A stretch of DNA of 64,000 bases from Marinomonas sp. KMM3893 (GTDB lineage: Bacteria; Pseudomonadota; Gammaproteobacteria; Pseudomonadales; Marinomonadaceae), in assembly GCF_004352855.1 (NCBI RefSeq), contig NZ_SJSC01000009.1:1-64000 (forward strand), given 5' to 3'. The number at the start of each line of letters is the position of its first letter. The stretch's first letter is position 1. Below the pieces are notes generated by a model. That model worked only from the letters and a program-made list of their open reading frames with translations, ran no database searches and was not told the origin of the DNA. A program made the position numbers and the translations under genes. This document shows, piece after piece, positions 7,369 through 17,925 of this stretch.

Positions 7369-9939
7369 TTGAGTAATAAAAATATAAACGATCCCCATAA
7401 ACAACGAGAAGCTTCTAAGTACGATAATCCCGTACCAAGCCGTGAATTCATATTGGAGTTCCTTGCGTCTAAGAATGTTAGCTTAGGCCATTTAGCGCTA
7501 TGCAAAGAGTTCGCTTTGACTGGCGAAGATGAAATAGAAGCGTTACGACGCCGTTTGATCGCCATGTGCCGTGATCATCAACTAACGAGCAACCAAGAAG
7601 AACAATACACCCCTATTTTAGAAAGTGACCTGATTGAAGGTTTTGTCCAAGGCAATAAAGAAGGCCATGGCTTTTTGTTGCGCCAAAGTGACGACGATAT
7701 CTTCCTCTCTGCGCGTCAAATGCAAAATGTTATGGATGGCGATAAAGTGAAAGCTCGCCTATCTGGACGCAGTGTGAAAGGCCGTTTAGACGGAGTAGTG
7801 GTAGAGGTTATTGAGCGTAAGCACAGCCAGTTAGTTGGTCGTTATTACGAAGAAAGCCGCACTTCTTTTGTGACACCTGAAAATCCACGTATTTCTCAAG
7901 ACATCTTGATTAGCAAAGATTCCGCATTAACACCGACTCATGGTCAATACGTATTAACAGAAATTGTTTCGTATGCCGAGCGCGGCAAGCCAGCAAGAGG
8001 GGTTATTAAGAAAATTCTTGGTGACTTCATGGCGCCAGGTCTTGAGATTGATGTGGCTATTCATCGCTATGAAATCCCCAACGAATGGCCGAAAGCGGTT
8101 GAAAAACAAGTTCAAAACTTCACCTCCGAAGTCGCTGAAGAAGACAAGCAATATCGTGTGGATTTACGTGATACGCCGTTTGTAACTATTGATGGTGAAG
8201 ACGCGCGCGACTTTGACGACGCTGTCTATTGTGAAAAAACCGCGGGCGGCTGGAAGTTATTTGTCGCCATTGCAGATGTGTCCCATTATGTGAAAAAAGA
8301 CACGGCGCTTGATGAAGAAGCCATTGTTCGTGGTAACTCAGTGTATTTCCCAGGGCGCGTTGTGCCTATGCTGCCAGAAGTATTATCGAACGGATTGTGT
8401 TCATTAAACCCAGACGTTGACCGTTTGGCGATGGTGGCAGAAGTGTCTCTTACCAGCAAAGGTAAAATGAGAGGCTTTAAGTTTTATGAAGGCTTGATTC
8501 GATCTCACGCTCGCCTTACTTATACCAAGGTCGCGAAGATGATTGCGCCAGAGCCGGAAGAAGATGGCTTGGCATTGCGTGACCGTTATGCGCCGATCGT
8601 GTCGCATATTGATGCGCTAAATGGTCTTTACCATGTATTAAAAGACGCTCGTGATGAACGTGGTGCGATGGAATTTGATACCGTCGAAACGCGTATGGTA
8701 TTTGATCAACATTCTAAGATCGATCAAATTGTTCCAGTAGAGCGCAACGATGCGCACAAATTGATTGAAGAATGCATGTTGTGCGCCAACGTGGCGGCAG
8801 CAGAATTATTGATTAAGGCGGATTTACCTGCCTTATTCCGTGTCCACGAAGGGCCAAAAGAAGATCGCTTATTAACGCTGCGTTCTTACCTTGGTTTGCT
8901 AGGTCTTGAACTGACCGGCGGATTGAAACCAACACCAAGTGATTACGCGGTGTTAGCAGAACAGATTAAAGACCGTGCCGACGCGCGTAGCATACAAGTG
9001 ATGTTGTTGCGTTCTATGTCTCAAGCTGTGTACCAAGCGGATAATCTTGGTCACTTTGGCTTGAACTACGAAGCTTATACACACTTTACTTCGCCGATTC
9101 GTCGTTACCCAGATTTGTTAGTGCATCGTGCGATTCGTTATTTGATTCGAGGTGAAGGTCGTCCCGTGGTGCGTCAGGCGCACCGAGTGACCGGTAGCCC
9201 AACCTTGAAAGAGCGTAAAATTTACGGCTACGATCAAGCCGACATGGATGCTTTAGGGGATTCTTGTTCGATTACAGAACGTCGAGCAGATGAAGCGACT
9301 CGCGACGTAGAAGCTTGGTTGAAATGTCAGTACGTAGAGCAACATTTAGGCGAACCGTTCGATGGTGTTGTGACCGCAGTAACCTCGTTCGGCTTGTTTG
9401 TTGAGCTACAAGGGTTGTTCGTGGATGGTTTGATCCATATTTCTGGATTGGGACAAGATTATTTTGTTCATGATCTAGAGCATCAAGCGATTATTGGTGA
9501 AAGAAGTGGTCGAGTCTTCCGCTTGGGCGATCGCCTAAAAGTGAAAGTGGCCAATGTGAACTTGGAACAGCGCAAAATTGACTTGAGCTTGGATGAGACA
9601 CAATCGCGTCCGCGTAAAAAAGTAGTGCGTAGTGAAACCAGTGAGCTTGAAATGCAATTGGCGCAACTGCCTCCTATTGAGTTGGGCGGCCGTGTGAAAC
9701 CTAAAAAAGCAGCACCAAGTGCCACTCAAGGTGACAAAGTAGAAAAAGCCGGTAAAGACGCGAAAGAGGGAGAAAAACCTAAGGCAAAAAAACGCCGTGG
9801 GCCTTCTAAAGGCAAGATCATTCGTCAAAAGAAAAGCGCTCAAAGTGCGGCGAAAGCCAAACCGGCTTCTGCAGCTAAAAAAGCGAAGAAGCCCAAAAAA
9901 GCGAAAAAAAATAACGCTAAGCCTCGCGCTCGCGATTAA
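7369..9939 (+). CDS. rnr: Ribonuclease R
   Basis: Processive 3'-5' exoribonuclease that degrades structured RNA. Numbered from the TTG at 7369 it has 856 residues: N-terminal helix and cold-shock domains (about 20-250), RNB catalytic domain with DGEDARDFDD at 275-284 carrying the Mg-binding aspartates, an S1 domain (about 660-745), and a long Lys/Ala-rich tail. The frame is open back to an ATG at 7213, but family proteins begin close to DPHxQREAxKYDNPxPSREF. That point coincides with TTG 7369, which has AAGGA ten bases upstream, so I prefer it. rlmB follows after 32 bases, a conserved pairing. Confidence 0.93.
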   Translation: MSNKNINDPHKQREASKYDNPVPSREFILEFLASKNVSLGHLALCKEFALTGEDEIEALRRRLIAMCRDHQLTSNQEEQYTPILESDLIEGFVQGNKEGHGFLLRQSDDDIFLSARQMQNVMDGDKVKARLSGRSVKGRLDGVVVEVIERKHSQLVGRYYEESRTSFVTPENPRISQDILISKDSALTPTHGQYVLTEIVSYAERGKPARGVIKKILGDFMAPGLEIDVAIHRYEIPNEWPKAVEKQVQNFTSEVAEEDKQYRVDLRDTPFVTIDGEDARDFDDAVYCEKTAGGWKLFVAIADVSHYVKKDTALDEEAIVRGNSVYFPGRVVPMLPEVLSNGLCSLNPDVDRLAMVAEVSLTSKGKMRGFKFYEGLIRSHARLTYTKVAKMIAPEPEEDGLALRDRYAPIVSHIDALNGLYHVLKDARDERGAMEFDTVETRMVFDQHSKIDQIVPVERNDAHKLIEECMLCANVAAAELLIKADLPALFRVHEGPKEDRLLTLRSYLGLLGLELTGGLKPTPSDYAVLAEQIKDRADARSIQVMLLRSMSQAVYQADNLGHFGLNYEAYTHFTSPIRRYPDLLVHRAIRYLIRGEGRPVVRQAHRVTGSPTLKERKIYGYDQADMDALGDSCSITERRADEATRDVEAWLKCQYVEQHLGEPFDGVVTAVTSFGLFVELQGLFVDGLIHISGLGQDYFVHDLEHQAIIGERSGRVFRLGDRLKVKVANVNLEQRKIDLSLDETQSRPRKKVVRSETSELEMQLAQLPPIELGGRVKPKKAAPSATQGDKVEKAGKDAKEGEKPKAKKRRGPSKGKIIRQKKSAQSAAKAKPASAAKKAKKPKKAKKNNAKPRARD

Positions 9940-9971
9940 TTGATTTATCCGATTAGAGTAAAAACGTCATA

Positions 9972-10739
9972 ATGTCAGATTTAGAATGGATTTACGGTAT
10001 TCACGCCGTAGAAAATGCCTTATCACAGCAACCTGAACGCGTTAAAGAAGTGCGCTTTCAGGAAGGTCGTGATGACAAAAAAACACAGCGTCTAGTGCAG
10101 CTTTGCAAAACGAATAAAGTGCGTTATAGCCTAGTCGCGCGTCGTGAATTGGACCAGCTCTTTACTAAGAATAAAGAGCGTGCTGTTCACCAAGGTGTGG
10201 TGGCTTATACCACCATGACCAAAGCCGGTAACGAAGGTGATTTACATACCTTAGTGGAAGGGTTGGATGAAACACCGCTGATTATTATTTTGGATGGGGT
10301 GACTGACCCACATAATTTAGGTGCGTGTTTGCGCAGCGCAGACGCCGCTGGTGCCCATGCGGTCGTGATGCCAAAAGATAACTCAGCGCCATTGAATGCG
10401 ACAGTGAGTAAAGTGGCGTGTGGTGCGGCTGAAAGCATCCCTGTTTACGCGGTAACGAACTTAGCGCGTACTATGAAGAAGCTACAAGACCAAGGCGTTT
10501 GGATATTTGGTACGGCTGGTGAAGCGACGCAAACGGTTTATGAGCAAGATTTTACCATTCCGACGGCCATTGTAATGGGCGCTGAAGGTGAAGGTATGCG
10601 CCGTTTAACTCGTGAACAGTGCGACTATTTAGTGAAATTACCCATGTCAGGTGTGGTTTCAAGCTTAAATGTCTCGGTTGCGACCGGTGTTTGTTTGTAT
10701 GAAGTAGTGCGTCAGCGCGCTCAAAAAGCACAGGGTTAA
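9972..10739 (+). CDS. rlmB: 23S rRNA (Gm2251) 2'-O-methyltransferase RlmB
   Basis: SPOUT-class methyltransferase that modifies G2251 in the peptidyl-transferase P loop of 23S rRNA using S-adenosylmethionine. The 255 residues fit the family: an N-terminal L30e-like substrate domain (about 1-80), then the knotted catalytic domain with NLGACLRSADAAGA (motif 1), MGAEGEGMRRL (motif 2) and SLNVSVATGVCLYE (motif 3). It lies 32 bases after rnr and 8 bases before cobT, so cobT may share its transcript. Confidence 0.96.
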   Translation: MSDLEWIYGIHAVENALSQQPERVKEVRFQEGRDDKKTQRLVQLCKTNKVRYSLVARRELDQLFTKNKERAVHQGVVAYTTMTKAGNEGDLHTLVEGLDETPLIIILDGVTDPHNLGACLRSADAAGAHAVVMPKDNSAPLNATVSKVACGAAESIPVYAVTNLARTMKKLQDQGVWIFGTAGEATQTVYEQDFTIPTAIVMGAEGEGMRRLTREQCDYLVKLPMSGVVSSLNVSVATGVCLYEVVRQRAQKAQG

Positions 10740-10747
10740 GGAGTATC

Positions 10748-11818
10748 GTGGTGTTTGAATGCTTTTCAATTCAAGCCCCGTCGGCGGCATTAGACGACGC
10801 ACTGCAGCATAAAATTGACAATAAAACCAAACCGTTAGGTGCTTTAGGTACGCTAGAAACATTGGCGTACCAGCTTGGTCGTATTCAGGGAACACTTCAT
10901 ATAGATGTTTCTAAACCCAAGATGATTGTGTTTGCTGCAGACCATGGTGTTGTGGCTCAGGGTGTCAGTTTGTTTCCTCAGGAAGTTACACCACAAATGG
11001 TGATGAACTTTTTGCATGGAGGGGCTGCTGTGAGCGTCTTTTGCGCACAGCACAATGTGCCGCTGCAAGTGGTGGATGTGGGTGTTAATGCGACATTAGA
11101 AGATCATCCGCTATTGAGCAAACGCAAAGTAGCCTTGGGTTCAAATGACTTTAGCCAAGAACCCGCGATGACAACACAAGCCCTGTCACAAGCGATTCAA
11201 GCCGGTGTTAGTGAAGTAGATACAGCGATTAATGACGGCGTTAATCTACTGATGTTCGGCGAAATGGGCATTGGGAACACTTGTGTTTCCTCTTGCATGA
11301 TGAGTGCGCTAATGGGCATTGACCCGCTAGAGAGTGCAGGTCGTGGTACAGGACTGGACGCCTCTGGAGTGTCCAGAAAAGCACGGGTGATCGCTGCCTC
11401 ATTACAACGTGCAGAGGCGCACACGGGGCAACCTGTGGCACAGTGGAATGCGCAGACATTGGCAGAGCAGGTCGGTGGTTTTGAAATCCTTGCTTTGGCT
11501 GGCGCTATGTTGCAATCAGCACAGCGTAAAACGGCGTTTGTGGTCGATGGCTTTATTTGCTCGGTCGCCTTGTTGTTTGCCCAAAAAGTGGCTCCTAATG
11601 TGAGTGAATACGCGATTTTTGCTCATCAATCGAATGAAAAAGCGCACAAACTTTTATTAGCACACTTAAACGCGGACCCTATCTTGTCGTTGGATTTACG
11701 TTTAGGGGAAGGCTCAGGTGCGATTCTGTCTTATCCTTTAATTCAAAGCGCGGCGGTATTTTTAAATACTATGGCGAGTTTTGAAAGCGCAGGTGTGAGT
11801 GACGGTGACAATATTTAA
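10748..11818 (+). CDS. cobT: Nicotinate-nucleotide:DMB phosphoribosyltransferase
   Basis: Transfers phosphoribose from nicotinate mononucleotide to 5,6-dimethylbenzimidazole, making alpha-ribazole phosphate for the lower loop of cobalamin. The 356 residues match CobT. The signature GEMGIGNTCVSS lies near 170-182, and the catalytic glutamate is Glu321 in LGEGSG. The start is one of two tandem GTG codons (10748 or 10751) behind AAGGAG; the second has better spacing. It overlaps cobS by 20 bases. The base itself would be made by the BluB encoded at 28.3-28.9 kb. Confidence 0.96.
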   Translation: MVFECFSIQAPSAALDDALQHKIDNKTKPLGALGTLETLAYQLGRIQGTLHIDVSKPKMIVFAADHGVVAQGVSLFPQEVTPQMVMNFLHGGAAVSVFCAQHNVPLQVVDVGVNATLEDHPLLSKRKVALGSNDFSQEPAMTTQALSQAIQAGVSEVDTAINDGVNLLMFGEMGIGNTCVSSCMMSALMGIDPLESAGRGTGLDASGVSRKARVIAASLQRAEAHTGQPVAQWNAQTLAEQVGGFEILALAGAMLQSAQRKTAFVVDGFICSVALLFAQKVAPNVSEYAIFAHQSNEKAHKLLLAHLNADPILSLDLRLGEGSGAILSYPLIQSAAVFLNTMASFESAGVSDGDNI

Positions 11819-12581
11819 CCCTCATTGGCAAGGCTTCAAACGCAGCCTTGTTACTTATACTCGGATTCCGCTAACGGTGGATTGGGACGACACGATAAAG
11901 CACACCCCAGCGGTGTGCTTTTTACCTTGGGTCGGCATTGTTGTTGCGCTATTGAGTGCTTGGCCATTATGGTTTGAAGGCTTGCCTGCGACTATTCAAG
12001 CTATTTTTATGTTGCTAACCGCGGTATTGCTGACTGGCGGCTTCCATGAAGATGGTCTGATGGACGCTTGTGATGGTCTGGTCGGCGGTTGGGATAAAGA
12101 ACAACGCTTGAAGATCATGAAAGACTCTAGGATTGGCAGTTATGCCGCCTTGTCGATTTGGTTTGCCCTGATGCTGAAATGGTTGTTGCTGACTCAGATA
12201 CTACTAAGCTTTGCCTCTAATAGCGCTCATTATGGTTCTGCATTGATCGCGTGGATTGCGGTGCATAGCGTATCTCGTATTACGCCTTTGGTGGTTATGA
12301 ATACGATGGAGTATGTGTCCGCTGGTGGCAGTAAAGCCTCTAGCATGATCGCAAGGTTAGACGCGCCACAATGGGGCGTGGCCTTACTGCCTTGTGTATT
12401 GCTCCTGTTATTAGACTTTTCCTACCTCATTAAAGCAGTGCTTGTATTGGCGTTGTTTACGTTTGGCGCACGACGCTACCTAAGAAAACGCATCGATGGC
12501 TATAATGGTGACGCATTGGGGGCGGTAGAGCAGATAAGCGAAGTGTTATTGCTGTTGTGCTTTATGGATGCCTTAGCATGA
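11799..12581 (+). CDS. cobS: Cobalamin synthase (adenosylcobinamide-GDP ribazoletransferase)
   Basis: Integral membrane enzyme that joins adenosylcobinamide-GDP and alpha-ribazole (phosphate) to give cobalamin. The 260 residues carry the family motif GGFHEDGLMDACDGLVGGW near 76-94 and several membrane helices (about 35-75 and 125-250). It overlaps cobT by 20 bases at its start and cobC by four bases (ATGA) at its end, so the three are translationally coupled. Confidence 0.95.
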   Translation: MTVTIFNPHWQGFKRSLVTYTRIPLTVDWDDTIKHTPAVCFLPWVGIVVALLSAWPLWFEGLPATIQAIFMLLTAVLLTGGFHEDGLMDACDGLVGGWDKEQRLKIMKDSRIGSYAALSIWFALMLKWLLLTQILLSFASNSAHYGSALIAWIAVHSVSRITPLVVMNTMEYVSAGGSKASSMIARLDAPQWGVALLPCVLLLLLDFSYLIKAVLVLALFTFGARRYLRKRIDGYNGDALGAVEQISEVLLLLCFMDALA

Positions 12582-13165
12582 AGCTGTATTTGGTTCGACA
12601 TCCTCAGCCGGATGTCGAAAAAGGGCTTTGTTATGGGCAAACGGATGTACCGCTTTGTAAAGGCTGGCCGGTTCATGCCGAAAAGCTAAAACAACACCTT
12701 GATCAGCGCATACAGCAAGATGACGCGACTTTTTTTCATAGCCCATTAGAGCGAGCTGCCAAACTTGGTGTGTTTATCAGTCAGGGTCAATCTCAAGCCA
12801 AAGACGCTCTTCAAGAGTTGGATTTTGGTTGTTGGGAAAATACCTTATGGCAAAGTATCCCCAGAGAGTCGATAGAATCGTGGTTTGAGGACATCCTTCA
12901 TGCTACGCCTTATCAAGGAGAGTCACTTCAAGCATTAGCGGATCGAGTGTGGACGTGGTGGTTGTCGGTGAGAGAAGGCGCTGCCGAACACTTAATCCTT
13001 GTTACGCATGCCGGGGTGATTAAAGTGCTGGTTAGTTTGCTGTGTCAGTGGCCATTAGCGCAAGCGCATCGCATTGATGTGGGCTTTATGAGTGTGACAG
13101 AACTGTATATTCAAGATGATTATATTTCCTTGAAGCGTCTCGGCGCTGGTGATTGGGTCGTCTAA
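12578..13165 (+). CDS. cobC: Alpha-ribazole phosphatase-like histidine phosphatase
   Basis: Histidine-phosphatase (phosphoglycerate-mutase fold) protein predicted to dephosphorylate alpha-ribazole phosphate or cobalamin phosphate. The N-terminal catalytic motif is RHPQP rather than the usual RHGxT but keeps Arg-His, and the second histidine is in LVTHAGVIKVL. The frame is open from 12557, but the ATG at 12578 gives the typical MKLYLVRHP start and an ATGA overlap with cobS, so I use it (195 residues). The position in the cob run supports the CobC role over a generic phosphatase. Confidence 0.88.
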   Translation: MKLYLVRHPQPDVEKGLCYGQTDVPLCKGWPVHAEKLKQHLDQRIQQDDATFFHSPLERAAKLGVFISQGQSQAKDALQELDFGCWENTLWQSIPRESIESWFEDILHATPYQGESLQALADRVWTWWLSVREGAAEHLILVTHAGVIKVLVSLLCQWPLAQAHRIDVGFMSVTELYIQDDYISLKRLGAGDWVV

Positions 13166-13208
13166 TTTCATCCAATAGAACGTGATTTGAACAGAGAAAA
13201 ATTACACT

Positions 13209-13823
13209 ATGCTGTTATATATTTTAGGCATGATAGGCATTGCTGCGTTTGCGATTACTGGCGTGATCTCGTCTGGAAAGCGAGACATGGATCTTTTTAG
13301 CATTGTCCTTTTAGGCATGGTTACCTCATTGGGAGGAGGCACGATTCGAGACACCATATTAGGGGTAGAAAGCGTGTATTGGGTGAAAGACACCTCTTAT
13401 CTTTGGGTGGCATTTTTATCTTCTTTGTTTGCTTTTTTTGCGGTGCGCATTATCGATGACAGACAAAGGGTGTTTCATTACGCTGATGCGTTTGGCTTAG
13501 CCTTGTTTACTGTTGTTGCCACAGAGCGAGTGCTGACATTAGGGTTTTCACCAACCATAGCGATTACCATGGGGGTCACTACTGGTGTGGCTGGCGGTAT
13601 TATTCGTGATGTGCTGAGCAATCGACCGCCAATGGTATTGGGGCGTGAGTTTTATGCGACTCCAGCCTTTATCGGAGCCGTGCTGTTAGTGCTTCTTCAA
13701 AAAAACATACCTTCTCATGAATATAACTCGATTTACGCCGTCGCTCTGATCTTTATACTCAGGTTGTTTGCTATTCATAAAGGCCTGTATTACCCCAGTT
13801 GGCTACTATATAAGAAGAGATAA
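13209..13823 (+). CDS. TRIC/UPF0126 cation channel family protein
   Basis: Membrane protein of 204 residues with about seven helices. The repeated TRIC signatures GGGTIRDTILG (about 38-48) and GGIIRDVLSNRPPMVL (about 130-145) are the two halves of the known inverted duplication. Bacterial TRIC homologues form trimeric monovalent-cation channels. Here it lies inside a cobalamin gene run, 43 bases after cobC and 3 bases before cobO, so it is surely co-transcribed. A role in cobalt or corrinoid handling is only a guess from position. Confidence 0.88.
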   Translation: MLLYILGMIGIAAFAITGVISSGKRDMDLFSIVLLGMVTSLGGGTIRDTILGVESVYWVKDTSYLWVAFLSSLFAFFAVRIIDDRQRVFHYADAFGLALFTVVATERVLTLGFSPTIAITMGVTTGVAGGIIRDVLSNRPPMVLGREFYATPAFIGAVLLVLLQKNIPSHEYNSIYAVALIFILRLFAIHKGLYYPSWLLYKKR

Positions 13824-13826
13824 TTC

Positions 13827-14426
13827 ATGACAGAACTTGATGCAAAACAAGAAGCGCGCTTATTAAAGAAAAAGGCTGTGGTTGATCAGCGTATCGCCGC
13901 CGCGACAGAAGAGCGTGGCGTCACCATTTTGTTAACCGGTACAGGCAAAGGCAAAAGTTCTAGTGCCTTTGGCACCATGGCAAGAGCGTTAGGACATGGC
14001 CATAAATGTGCTGTCATCCAGTTTATAAAAGGCCGTAAGGCGACCGGGGAGCAACTTTTCTTTGGCGAGCATCCTGGTGTGGATTTTCACGTTATGGGGC
14101 ATGGCTTTAGCTGGGAAACCCGTAACCCAGAATTAGAAAAGCACGCGGCTGAGCAAGCTTGGGAATTGGCAAAACAAGTATTGTCTAATCCAGATATTCA
14201 TTTTGTACTGCTGGATGAAATTACCTATATGTATAAATACGGCCATCTCGATGAAGCAGACTTGCTGGCAGCATTGGCGGCGCGTCCAGCTCACCAAAAT
14301 GTCATGATGACAGGTAGAACGGCCCCTAGAGCATTATTGGACAGTGTGGATACCCACAGCAAGGTGGCGAATGAGCGCCATGCGTTTGCGAATGGTGTAA
14401 AAGCACAAGCAGGCATTGAGTGGTAG
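13827..14426 (+). CDS. cobO: Cob(I)yrinic acid a,c-diamide adenosyltransferase
   Basis: Transfers the adenosyl group of ATP to the reduced cobalt of corrinoids (CobA/CobO/BtuR family). The 199-residue protein has the family P-loop GTGKGKSS at 38-45 and the LLDEITYMYKYGHLD segment typical of the family near 130-144. It starts 3 bases after the TRIC gene and overlaps the following EEP gene by 7 bases. No cobU/cobP, cobD/cbiB or cobQ gene is in the window. Confidence 0.95.
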   Translation: MTELDAKQEARLLKKKAVVDQRIAAATEERGVTILLTGTGKGKSSSAFGTMARALGHGHKCAVIQFIKGRKATGEQLFFGEHPGVDFHVMGHGFSWETRNPELEKHAAEQAWELAKQVLSNPDIHFVLLDEITYMYKYGHLDEADLLAALAARPAHQNVMMTGRTAPRALLDSVDTHSKVANERHAFANGVKAQAGIEW

Positions 14427-15481
14427 TTCGCATTGCGAGCTACAATACCGCATTAAGTCGACCTAATAGAGGCGATTTATTGGCTGCTCTAGAGTCTGGT
14501 CGTGATAAACAAGTGTTAGCCACGGTGGCGCTGTTGCAGCATATCCGAGCAGATATCATTTTACTGAACGAGGTAGACTTTGACCCAAGTGGTCGAGTCG
14601 TTGCCTTATTACAGCAAGCTCTTCGTCAACCAGCAAATAATGCGGCTTTGGATTACCCTTACGCATATTGCCAACCTGTTAATAGCGGGGAGCCTTCAGG
14701 ACGTGATTTTGACAAAGACGGAATGGCCTCTGATCAGGGGAGTGACGCCTTAGGTTTTGGCCTGTTTCCAGGCCAGTATGGCATGGTGTTATTGTCGCGT
14801 TTCCCGATTGATAGCGCTTCGTCACGGACCTTTCAATCCTTCCTTTGGAAGGACATGCCTAATCCTTGTTTGCCCAAAAATGCTCAAGGTGATGCTTGGT
14901 TTGATTCAGCGGACCTTGCGGTATTGCCTTTGTCTTCAAAGTCTCATTGGGATGTGGCCATTAATATTGGGGGCAGGCGTCTTAGATGCTTGTGTTCACA
15001 TCCAACGCCACCAGTGTTTGACGGTCCAGAAAGGCGCAATGCCTGCCGTAATCACGATGAAATTCGTTTTTGGAGCGATTATTTATCCGCTGAGCCTTAC
15101 TTTTACGATGATCAAGGAAGGCGAGGAGGGTTAGACCAAGAGGACTTTGTTTTACTGGGGGATTTGAACGCTTCACCAGTGGAAGGGGACGCTTACCAAC
15201 AAGCGATCAAGAGCTTATTACAACACCCCAGAATGGCACAATGTGCTTTTCCTGACAGCATCGGAGCCATTGCTCATAGTGCTAAGCTCGATAAAAACAT
15301 CGCTAAACACCATACCGCTGTTTGGCGAATGCAAGCGGATTACGTACGAGTCAGCCACACACTCTCTCCCTCCTACCAGGCTGTATTTTGGCCTGCAAAA
15401 AAGCATAAAGCAGCGTCCTTGCTCACGGATACTTCAGATCATCGTCTTGTGTTTATTGACCTTCCTTTTGTAAAAAACTAA
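14420..15481 (+). CDS. Endonuclease/exonuclease/phosphatase (EEP) family protein
   Basis: Metal-dependent phosphodiesterase-fold protein of 353 residues. The EEP catalytic motifs are visible: Asn50-Glu51 in LLNEVD, GDLNA with Asp248 and Asn250, and SDHR with Asp340-His341. It has no signal peptide, so it should be cytosolic. It starts with GTG, overlapping the end of cobO by 7 bases, and ends the cobalamin-linked run. Substrate is unknown; the position suggests a nucleotide-loop or phosphodiester intermediate of corrinoid metabolism, but a DNA- or lipid-directed role is equally open. A Fur-type dyad follows the stop codon. Confidence 0.85.
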   Translation: MVVRIASYNTALSRPNRGDLLAALESGRDKQVLATVALLQHIRADIILLNEVDFDPSGRVVALLQQALRQPANNAALDYPYAYCQPVNSGEPSGRDFDKDGMASDQGSDALGFGLFPGQYGMVLLSRFPIDSASSRTFQSFLWKDMPNPCLPKNAQGDAWFDSADLAVLPLSSKSHWDVAINIGGRRLRCLCSHPTPPVFDGPERRNACRNHDEIRFWSDYLSAEPYFYDDQGRRGGLDQEDFVLLGDLNASPVEGDAYQQAIKSLLQHPRMAQCAFPDSIGAIAHSAKLDKNIAKHHTAVWRMQADYVRVSHTLSPSYQAVFWPAKKHKAASLLTDTSDHRLVFIDLPFVKN

Positions 15482-15487
15482 ATCAAA

Positions 15488-15502
15488 TGAGATTTATTCT
15501 CA
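15488..15502. promoter_or_regulatory. Fur-like dyad 1 upstream of the Ni-SOD operon
   Basis: TGAGATTTATTCTCA is palindromic at six of seven paired positions and resembles the 7-1-7 Fur consensus TGATAATxATTATCA. It lies 7 bases after the EEP stop codon, so it could alternatively be a weak transcript-end hairpin. Confidence 0.45.
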
Positions 15503-15532
15503 ATATCGCTGGATTTATTATAGTTTTTTAAT

Positions 15533-15551
15533 GATAATGATTCTCGTTACT
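15533..15551 (+). promoter_or_regulatory. Fur box upstream of the Ni-SOD operon
   Basis: GATAATGATTCTCGTTACT matches the 19-base Fur consensus GATAATGATAATCATTATC at 14 of 19 positions by eye. It lies about 50 bases before the first gene of the operon, where it would block the promoter when iron is plentiful. Confidence 0.7.
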
Positions 15552-15601
15552 TTGTTTTTCGACATTCATGACTATGAAAATCAACCGAAGTGGAGATGAC
15601 T

Positions 15602-16045
15602 ATGCAGTACTGGGAAAAGTTAACAAGAGAAGCCAATCAAGCCTATTTCAAACATGCTTTTTCTGATGCGGTAGATCTGAACCGAGAGGCGCTGACACAA
15701 GTTGAAAGTGACTTCGATCGTGGTTTTTATCAGGACCCAGAATCGTATGTATCCGCTGCTGTGGTTAGCCATTTAAATATCGCCGAAGCATTTGTTGCGT
15801 TGGGAGATTTTATTTCGGCTAATTTACAGTATGAAAACGCCGCTAATTTCTTACAAGCTATTTTGATTCGCCCTGATTTAGAGTGTGAACAGCGTGATTT
15901 GATTATGCGTACCGCGACTCACATACGTTTCGAATGGGATCTTTTTAGTCAAAGCCATAGTGCGAACTTGAAGGAACAAAGCAAGGTATTGATGCAGGCT
16001 ATTACGCATGCGGTATCGTATTCAACAGCGGTTGTACATCACTAG
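15602..16045 (+). CDS. Hypothetical helical (TPR-like) protein, Fur-box operon
   Basis: I do not recognise this 147-residue protein with certainty. It is soluble, rich in Ala/Leu/Gln, and looks all-helical, with an alternation resembling tetratricopeptide units (REANQAYFKHAFSDAVDLNREAL, then HLNIAEAFVALGDFISANLQYENA). I use ATG 15602, which has GTGGAG as ribosome site; a GTG at 15590 is an upstream alternative. It is the first gene after the Fur box. From memory, Pseudomonas aeruginosa has a small unassigned gene (orfX) in its Fur-controlled fumC-sodA operon, which may be a counterpart; this needs an alignment. Confidence 0.75.
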   Translation: MQYWEKLTREANQAYFKHAFSDAVDLNREALTQVESDFDRGFYQDPESYVSAAVVSHLNIAEAFVALGDFISANLQYENAANFLQAILIRPDLECEQRDLIMRTATHIRFEWDLFSQSHSANLKEQSKVLMQAITHAVSYSTAVVHH

Positions 16046-16057
16046 GGTTGATAGAGG

Positions 16058-16282
16058 ATGAAAAAAAAGACAGTCATAGCATGCTGGGTTCTGTTCGCAA
16101 GTGTTGTCAGTGGACGTTCTTTTGCTCAAGCAAACGAATGCGCTTCTTGGTTTACTGTTCATAATCTAGCGTTTGTCTTTGTGGGTCTTTTGCTCTTTGC
16201 CGGTGTGTATTACAAGCAATTTTTTATGCGACGAAAAAACAGACAGAAAGGACGTGTTCACCATGATGCATCAGATGATTAA
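16058..16282 (+). CDS. Small secreted or membrane-anchored protein before sodN
   Basis: A 74-residue protein with a signal-peptide-like N-terminus (MKKKTVIACWVLFASVVSGRSFAQA, likely cleaved after AQA), a short polar piece, one membrane helix (about 35-53) and a basic-then-acidic tail with a histidine pair (VHHDASDD). It has a GAGG ribosome site, starts 12 bases after the previous gene, and overlaps the start of sodN by 20 bases, so it is part of the operon. No family is recognised. A role in nickel delivery or in SOD export would be speculative. Confidence 0.65.
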   Translation: MKKKTVIACWVLFASVVSGRSFAQANECASWFTVHNLAFVFVGLLLFAGVYYKQFFMRRKNRQKGRVHHDASDD

Positions 16283-16766
16283 CCTGTTAGATAAAATGGT
16301 TCATTTTAAACAAGCTCAGGCGCATTGCGATATTCCTTGTAAAATTTACGACCCATCTGGTGCTTTGTTGGCGGCATTGAGTTGTGTTCGTATGATTGAC
16401 CTGATTCATGAAGTCGGTGATGGCACCAGTTTGTCCGTCTCTGATGTGGCGAAAATTTCACGCTTAGTGCAGGAAAAAGAAAAAACCTGTAGCGATGTAA
16501 AAGAAGAAATTCGAACCATTTGGGGAGATTATTTTAAGGCAGCGCAGTTTGAACAAGTACCGGATGTGCACACCATGGTTCACGATATCATGATGCAAGC
16601 CTCTAAGTGCAAGCAAGGAATCGACCGCTCTGACAGTGAAGCCTTGGTAGAAAAAATAAATCGATTTGCTGAAGCTTTCTGGCTAACAAAAGGAGTGAGT
16701 ACTTACCGAGCGCCTTGCCCTTATCCGCCAGCATTAGAAACGGTTTACCCTAATTTAAAACCTTAA
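16263..16766 (+). CDS. sodN: Superoxide dismutase [Ni]
   Basis: Nickel-containing superoxide dismutase precursor. The start ATG 16263 has AAAGGA ten bases upstream; an earlier in-frame ATG (16173) would only add unrelated residues from the upstream gene's frame. The precursor has a 20-residue leader ending in KQAQA, followed by the nickel hook HCDIPCKIYDP. In the mature enzyme His1, Cys2 and Cys6 bind nickel, and Tyr9 guards the site. The mature part (about 147 residues) is helical as expected. The maturation protease SodX is encoded 79 bases downstream. The leader is not a classical export signal, so the enzyme should be cytosolic. Confidence 0.95.
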   Translation: MMHQMINLLDKMVHFKQAQAHCDIPCKIYDPSGALLAALSCVRMIDLIHEVGDGTSLSVSDVAKISRLVQEKEKTCSDVKEEIRTIWGDYFKAAQFEQVPDVHTMVHDIMMQASKCKQGIDRSDSEALVEKINRFAEAFWLTKGVSTYRAPCPYPPALETVYPNLKP

Positions 16767-16845
16767 ATAGCTCGCAGGCACATGCCTTTGATAGTGATTG
16801 CGCAGGCCTGCGTTTATTTGATCAATGTTTACACGGGGACGCTTT

Positions 16846-17172
16846 ATGTTTCGTTTAATTAAAGTGCTGGGCAACAGCATGGTGCCACGGCTTTATGATG
16901 GCGACTTTGTTTTTACAAGCCGCTTTTACACGACGTTAAAAGTAGGGCATCTTGTTGTTGTGGATCATGCCTTATACGGACTTATTCTTAAAAAAGTACT
17001 CCACATAGCCCCAGATGGACAACTTTGGCTAGGCGGAGAAAACAACCAAAGTATGCAGTCTGAACGCATTGGTTGGGTGTCATCAAGGCGAGTGGTCGGC
17101 AAAGTAGTCGCGTCTATTTGTGCTCATCGTCCTTCGGCTGCGGTTATTGAAGGGCAGAGTAGCGTCAAATAA
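16846..17172 (+). CDS. sodX: Ni-superoxide dismutase maturation protease
   Basis: Signal-peptidase-I-like (S26) protease of 108 residues that removes the N-terminal leader of SodN so that His1 is exposed for nickel binding. It has the catalytic serine Ser11 in GNSMVP and a candidate general-base lysine Lys49 or Lys50 in LILKKVL. Unlike true signal peptidases it lacks a membrane anchor. The ATG at 16846, behind GGGGAC, gives the compact family start; an ATG at 16825 is also in frame. It sits directly after sodN, the usual order. Confidence 0.93.
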   Translation: MFRLIKVLGNSMVPRLYDGDFVFTSRFYTTLKVGHLVVVDHALYGLILKKVLHIAPDGQLWLGGENNQSMQSERIGWVSSRRVVGKVVASICAHRPSAAVIEGQSSVK

Positions 17173-17307
17173 GTGTACAGAAAAAAAGACACTTTTTAGA
17201 AAAGAGTAAAAACAGAGTATGGCTCAACAGTTGGTCTTCGGGCTGTGTTTCTCTAAAATTTGCTTATCCGTTATGCGAATTTTAATGTCTAATTTGAAGA
17301 GAAACTT

Positions 17308-17925
17308 ATGTCTACTAGTGCAACAATACCTAAACGCCATACTCGAATAGAAGATATTCAGGCGCTTGTTATTGGTACCCTTATTATTGCCTTAGGGGTG
17401 AATTTTTTCACTCAAGCGGGGTTGTTGACCGGTGGTACCGCTGGCATGGCATTTCTACTGCAATACACAACCTCACTGACTTTTGGTGAAGCCTTCTTTT
17501 TAGTCAATATACCGTTTTATCTATTAGCGATGAAATACATGGGGTGGGAATTTACGCTTAAAACGTTTTCCGCTGTGTTTTGTGTTTCGCTTTTTTCCGA
17601 TCTGACTCCCAGGTTTATTTCGTTAAACAGCATTGAGCCCATTTATGCGGCATTGGCTGGTGGTTTTCTGATGGGCGTGGGCTTTTTGATGTTATTCAGA
17701 CACAACGCCAGTTTAGGTGGTATCAATATTTTGGCACGCTACATCGCGGAAAAGTATGGTATCTCGTTTGGTAAATTTCAGATGGCCGTGGATTGCACCA
17801 TAGTGACCTTGTCTATTTTTGTGGTGGACATCTACTTGATTGCGATCTCAATTATCGGCGCCATTGCATTGAATATCATTCTGGCAGTCAACCATAAGCC
17901 TGGACGTTACATGGGCAATATCTAA
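17308..17925 (+). CDS. YitT/DUF161 family membrane protein
   Basis: Integral membrane protein of 205 residues with five to six helices and the family GGTAGMAF and NASLGGINILARY segments. Members are annotated as putative transporters with no settled substrate. It lies alone between sodX (135 bases upstream) and a strong terminator, so it is probably monocistronic. Confidence 0.85.
   Translation: MSTSATIPKRHTRIEDIQALVIGTLIIALGVNFFTQAGLLTGGTAGMAFLLQYTTSLTFGEAFFLVNIPFYLLAMKYMGWEFTLKTFSAVFCVSLFSDLTPRFISLNSIEPIYAALAGGFLMGVGFLMLFRHNASLGGINILARYIAEKYGISFGKFQMAVDCTIVTLSIFVVDIYLIAISIIGAIALNIILAVNHKPGRYMGNI

Follow-up and report, generated by a model that had tools for sequence, protein, structure and literature searches.

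Probable Fur control of a nickel superoxide dismutase operon in Marinomonas, with two candidate accessory genes

In Marinomonas sp. KMM3893, the four same-strand genes tpr-tm-sodN-sodX, preceded by two Fur-type dyads (Table 1), very likely form a Fur-repressed operon responding to iron starvation. The first-pass annotation of this locus had placed the nickel superoxide dismutase (Ni-SOD) under Fur, and this part of it is well supported by sequence comparison, that is, by conserved tandem sites and the presence of a true Fur, as well as by the induction under iron limitation reported for Alteromonas (PMC7190382). The two genes upstream of sodN and the operons without sodN were outside its scope. 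The two dyads ahead of a four-gene run ending in sodN-sodX were borne out both in coordinates and in gene order, the second dyad, originally given as 15533-15551, being a 19-mer reading of site 2.

The entire stretch analysed, 64,000 nt long and further referred to as the window, belongs to a genome of 3.75 Mb in 15 contigs. A 120-nt gap separates tpr from a gene of the Exo_endo_phos family that ends at 15481. The nearest named relative at the sodN locus is Marinomonas pollencensis (88% SodN identity), records very near to the genome itself being possibly omitted.

Table 1. Genes and predicted regulatory elements of the sodN locus (window coordinates).
Feature	Coordinates	Strand	Description
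Fur site 1	15488-15502	+	TGAGATTTATTCTCA; 11/14 to the Fur 7-1-7 consensus TGATAATnATTATCA
Putative promoter	15510-15538	+	TGGATT 15510-15515, 17-nt spacer, GATAAT 15533-15538; predicted from sequence
Fur site 2	15532-15546	+	TGATAATGATTCTCG; 12/14 to the Fur 7-1-7 consensus
tpr	15602-16045	+	TPR-type protein of 147 aa, all-helical; GTG at 15590 as a possible alternative start
tm	16058-16282	+	74 aa; signal-peptide-like segment plus another hydrophobic helix (hydropathy rules)
sodN	16263-16766	+	nickel superoxide dismutase; 20-nt overlap with tm
sodX	16846-17172	+	probable Ni-SOD maturation protease, S24/S26 type

Judged by its Sod_Ni domain and by the HCxxPC hook following the leader, SodN is a nickel superoxide dismutase. 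It scores 152.8 bits (7e-45) against TIGR02753, with the cut-off at 90, and 2.7e-42 against PF09055; the predicted cleavage of a 20-aa leader would yield a mature protein starting with the HCDIPCKIYDP hook, where HCDIPC (residues 21-26) is aligned to HCDLPC of 1q0d (PDB match 1.7e-13). Compared with M. pollencensis, sodN has pN 0.075 and pS 0.651. SodX, encoded by the gene adjacent to sodN, is above the Pfam cut-offs for S24 and S26 (PF00717, PF10502), its score against TIGR02754 (49.6 bits, 4.2e-13) being below the curated cut-off of 63.25. It contains GNSMVP and LILKK with the S26-type Ser and Lys. A short terminator-like inverted repeat is situated between sodN and sodX (16800-16813); it could lower the level of sodX relative to sodN, and the count of such repeats in the scan is at the chance level.

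Paired sites, candidate regulators and the iron SOD

Taken singly, each Fur site is weak, as the number of Fur-type sites with at most 3 mismatches in the window is at the chance level (7 vs 5.2 expected; a count of 7 is attained in 30 of 100 shuffles), and hence we dropped single-site statistics as a proof of Fur control. Such scores are what one would see if the dyads were chance AT-rich palindromes, and the operon were constitutive or controlled by another stress regulator. The pair, however, tells otherwise: both sites score at least 10/14 at a spacing of 43-45 bp in 24 of 25 tpr promoters (18 sodN-bearing loci and 7 sodN-less genomes after removal of duplicate genomes, without other genera and without L006, L037 and L040, which are more distant), vs 10 of 5000 shuffles preserving the neighbour frequencies. 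The sole miss is L007, where site 1 scores 9/14. For 23 promoters (L007 and L008 omitted as more distant) the pairwise identity is 0.95 in site 1 and 0.94 in site 2; it is as low as 0.42 in the sequence preceding site 1, 0.54 directly 3' of that site and 0.69 before site 2, while on the 3' side of site 2 it is 0.82 in the next four bases and then 0.36. Thus, the pair is conserved at a near-fixed spacing while its surroundings diverge, which argues against chance, and we regard the explanation by fortuitous palindromes as most improbable.

If the pair is a genuine regulatory element, the candidate regulators are to be considered. The search with PF01475 yielded two FUR-family proteins in the genome, one Fur and one Zur-like, and no third one. 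The best match of the first is 1mzb (5.9e-59), which we take to be the P. aeruginosa Fur; the best matches of the second are 7dh7 and the zinc uptake regulator 4mtd. The chain 3eyy, listed as a putative iron uptake regulator and presumably Nur, matches these two proteins at 1.6e-11 and 1.4e-6, far below the Fur and Zur chains. No NikR was found in the genome by the search that was positive in 5 of 14 control genomes, and the Nur-box consensus, with up to 3 mismatches allowed, was absent from 8115-17447. Nickel control, with the dyads being sites of a Nur-type or NikR regulator, has a precedent in Streptomyces, where sodN and sodF are controlled by Nur (PMC3919588). Nur belongs to the FUR family; here, however, such control would be left without a regulator, as there is neither a third FUR-family protein nor NikR. 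We reject it as having hardly any probability, and the Nur-type regulator, named in the first-pass annotation as evidence that would speak against Fur, was searched for and did not turn up, nor did a Nur-box. The Zur-like protein, in turn, could occupy the sites instead of Fur, linking Ni-SOD to zinc, and its gene adjoins an ABC ATPase gene which, by eye, resembles znuC. However, it is the Fur consensus that the dyads match, and further examples of this consensus precede Peripla_BP_2 genes in this genome, leaving Zur with very little credence.

Fur remains the preferred regulator. In the whole genome, 50 Fur-type sites with at most 2 mismatches were observed vs 15 for the reversed pattern. Nine sites have at most 1 mismatch, and the neighbours were classified for five of them (L099, L103, L104, L105, L107), being Peripla_BP_2 (L103 and L105), a cupredoxin (L107), one HTH_18 regulator, and one ArsP_2 permease; among these five, only L103, L105, and perhaps L107 look iron-related.

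In three more distant Marinomonas (L006, L037, L040) there is one site region each, situated in L037 and L040 at the place of site 2. Sites scoring 11-14/14 were found in front of the tpr ORF, at a distance of 4-65 nt, in these three loci, in Neptunomonas (L035, 14/14), and in L009 from another family of the order, some of these sites overlapping short mechanical ORFs. Five loci (L047, L050, L051, L063, L092) have Fur-type sites in non-coding DNA 5' of tm. The best Fur score near tpr does not exceed 9/14 in L013, L036 and L043, and the sole Fur-type match at the Alteromonas locus L034 (11/14) lies inside an ORF. The best site score is at least 12 at 45 of 88 loci vs 1.4 expected, a figure that is overstated, since the SAR86 matches are in coding sequence; the SAR86 candidates near -640 were discounted as they fall within a 548-aa ORF.

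The putative promoter would be situated so that its -10 element, GATAAT, probably falls within Fur site 2. Most of the 25 promoters have TGGATTT between the two Fur sites; TGGATT makes a poor -35 element. The consensus promoter scan, whose count was at the chance level, offered an alternative with TTCTCA from 15497 and TATAGT to 15524.

The first-pass annotation also proposed a scan for sodB and its regulation: an iron SOD is present, and a Fur site upstream of it was not found (the best score is 9/14). This is the only Fe/Mn-family SOD gene in the genome, with best matches to iron SODs (4l2b, 2.4e-111). The PrrF sRNA was dropped as a candidate sodB regulator, since its matches in the genome were below the family cut-off, as was also the case in 9 of 14 control genomes. 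Rfam models applied to 16 loci (sodB and 15 Fur-site loci) produced 8 matches, no iron sRNA among them, and only two tRNAs passed the gathering score. As for the nickel enzyme, it is likely induced by low iron; the replacement of the iron SOD put forward in the first-pass annotation would also take a drop in sodB, which is conjectural here.

The tm and tpr proteins

To collect tm-type ORFs, we used rules blind to histidine (a short ORF immediately 5' of sodN that encodes two hydrophobic segments). Such ORFs are present at 58 of 88 non-redundant sodN loci. In 56 of these 58 the first hydrophobic segment is followed by [ASG]H, vs 8 of 152 control ORFs taken at those loci, although the loci are kin to each other (many are from Marinomonas or SAR86), and hence the 58 are not independent cases. 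The strongest form of the motif is A|HPGHDHxHW; divergent SAR86 forms retain AH and further His residues. The two exceptions lacking the His motif are the tm ORFs of the window and of M. pollencensis (L025:3796-4017), with sodN intact. Since the motif is absent from the window copy, there are no grounds for ascribing to tm a role in nickel supply in this species.

Of 29 tm members, 9 match DUF6732 at E<=0.01 and none match NCBIfam, and a weak Pfam similarity to HupE_UreJ was seen for 2 members in one search and for 1 of 29 in another. In its own genome the tm profile finds a protein at 5.9e-15, this protein being itself a row of the profile. Profile A2 matches in 29 of 56 relatives, including 19 of 20 genomes with sodN (the exception being G038), the first figure being biased, as several of the matching proteins are rows of A2. 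It also matches in 10 of 36 sodN-less genomes, and therefore the idea that tm is strictly bound to sodN was rejected. These ten comprise seven relic operons and the genomes G047, G048 and G054. In G048, a 59-aa HPGHDH membrane protein (L136:3895-4074) is encoded right after genes for UreE, UreF and a CobW/HypB/UreG-domain protein; these urease accessory neighbours link the HPGHDH motif to nickel, suggesting a wider nickel-linked family. For G047 (L137) and G054 (L138) no nickel gene was identified nearby, and the L138 match is inside a longer frame.

Matches to the tpr profile were observed 5' of sodN at 32 of 94 sodN loci (duplicate genomes counted). The window protein alone has no Pfam match; the profile of its 21 relatives matches consensus TPR proteins, and 7 of the 21 match TPR_12 at E<=0.01. 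The AlphaFold2 model is all-helical, with six helices and the mean pLDDT of 93.5; Foldseek retrieved nothing at E<=0.001, the top, weak matches being TPR proteins. Judging by the profile and by the modelled helical hairpins, the product of the first gene is a TPR-type protein. DUF2753 was discarded as the tpr family: it matches 4 of 21 members at E<=0.01, and the search of 274 genomes was empty even in the controls and hence uninformative. A link of tpr to the Pseudomonas orfX, considered on the basis of papers, was set aside. The last residue of tpr (16040-16042) is His in all proteins tabulated (n = 25).

Among 369 genomes of the class, eight have tpr matches. Four are strong (the own genome, G310, G406, G194), and four are weak (E from 6.7e-4 to 2.0e-7, in open frames of 338-902 aa). 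At four tpr loci, each considered over about 3.3 kb, sodN was found only at L122, one of two tpr copies in G194, which lies inside tpr-tm-sodN-sodX. In G310, the tpr copy (L115) follows a TonB-dependent receptor barrel, from which it is separated by a single ORF, and no sodN is present within 3.3 kb, hinting at an iron-related role for the TPR protein; the copies at L116 and L117 have other neighbours.

Related operons without sodN

PF09055 is found in 17 of 35 genomes of the genus. Of the 18 sodN-less ones we studied seven (L129-L135), found through tm relics. All seven keep both Fur sites and the 147-residue tpr. Five of them (L129, L130, L132, L133, L134) also keep sodX together with a remnant of SodN that can be matched no further than residues 21-27, so that the leader is left and the catalytic body is gone; L131 and L135 have neither sodX nor a SodN remnant. 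The HPGHDH motif is altered in 7 of 7 relics, the N-terminal His being left in three (L130, L131, L132).

In the tree of tpr and yitT, six relics (L131 lacks yitT) occupy about five places interspersed with species that have sodN. Support is low at some nodes (0.30 for the one joining L129 and L022), and L135 and L132 are well apart. Such scattered positions make several separate losses of sodN likely.

The mean pN/pS in the sodN-less vs other pairs is 0.27 vs 0.20 for tpr and 0.79 (3 pairs only) vs 0.48 for tm, and for sodX it is 0.22 in the sodN-less pairs vs 0.18, all these rates being rough, as most comparisons are close to synonymous saturation. The pN of sodX against L017 is 0.075 for L129 and 0.100-0.121 for L130, L133 and L134, the range in L022, L019 and L030, which have sodN, being 0.070-0.086. 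These values are consistent with at most a slight relaxation of selection on sodX in the sodN-less species. In L133, the putative nucleophile Ser of SodX is replaced by Asn.

The persistence of tpr and sodX without sodN is not predicted for an operon serving purely SodN. Since both the Fur sites and tpr are retained in seven relatives devoid of sodN, this promoter probably serves more than Ni-SOD alone.

Proposed mechanism and comparison with known systems

When iron is plentiful, Fe-Fur would occupy the two dyads around the promoter, blocking transcription. When iron is low, Fur would leave, and tpr-tm-sodN-sodX would be transcribed. SodX would then trim the SodN leader, exposing the His1-Cys2-Cys6 nickel hook, and the cell would obtain a superoxide defence with no requirement for iron. 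The ancestral tm protein most likely bound nickel by its mature N-terminal His and HPGHDHxHW on the periplasmic side, aiding the nickel supply, and the TPR protein may be a cytosolic partner.

A bolder joint proposal, which we advance tentatively and consider rather unlikely to hold in full, is that tm, by means of its mature N-terminal His, is a membrane nickel-presenting factor for Ni-SOD, and in another lineage for urease; that tpr and SodX have a second, Fur-controlled job independent of SodN; and that the lineage of the window is an intermediate which has lost the tm motif. The second job is suggested because, where the body of SodN has disappeared, the Fur sites and tpr persist, along with a SodN peptide reduced to its leader and a SodX on which selection has weakened slightly at most.

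With Fur in control, the metal chosen for SOD in marine bacteria would depend on the repressor that responds to iron, and iron would be spared where it limits growth. To our knowledge, nickel delivery to Ni-SOD is not well understood, and tpr and tm are two candidate accessory proteins for this enzyme, while the sodN-less operons are natural knock-outs, in which tpr and SodX can be considered on their own.

The biology of iron limitation is already known in outline by analogy with two systems, namely, the induction of Ni-SOD in Alteromonas and the Mn-SOD operon linked to a Fur motif in Pseudomonas. Alteromonas macleodii is likewise a marine gammaproteobacterium with Ni-SOD, and its transcript (MASE_02360) is enriched under iron limitation; no Fur site or operon partners are described in the accessible part of that account (PMC7190382). 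The tandem sites and the four-gene run of Marinomonas are known from sequence, whereas the evidence in A. macleodii comes from expression, and another Alteromonas strain (L034) has no clear non-coding Fur site. The Pseudomonas operon fagA-fumC-orfX-sodA similarly consists of four genes behind a putative Fur motif, one of them encoding a non-iron SOD, and at low iron this SOD goes up and sodB goes down; it differs in having Mn-SOD in place of Ni-SOD and in the presence of fumC (PMC3377617).

Streptomyces shares with Marinomonas the adjacency of sodN and sodX and the choice between the iron and nickel SODs, but relies on the nickel-sensing Nur and on the s-SodF RNA (PMC3919588), while neither a Nur-like gene nor a Nur-box was found here in the searches described above. 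For tm, the closest parallel is a 2025 study in which domains with N-terminal His on HupE/UreJ permeases were found to bind copper and nickel (PMC12537917). Like these Ang-1/HupE-UreJ domains, tm proteins have His directly after the signal peptide and occur in a nickel context, but they are single-helix proteins of 50-90 aa with no permease domain, and the window copy lacks the His. In the accessible text of the sources returned by our literature search, which left out most subscription papers, neither the paired arrangement of the sites nor the association with tpr and tm was described, and the losses of sodN were not mentioned either. What appears newer, beside the known biology of iron limitation, is the association of tpr and tm with sodN.
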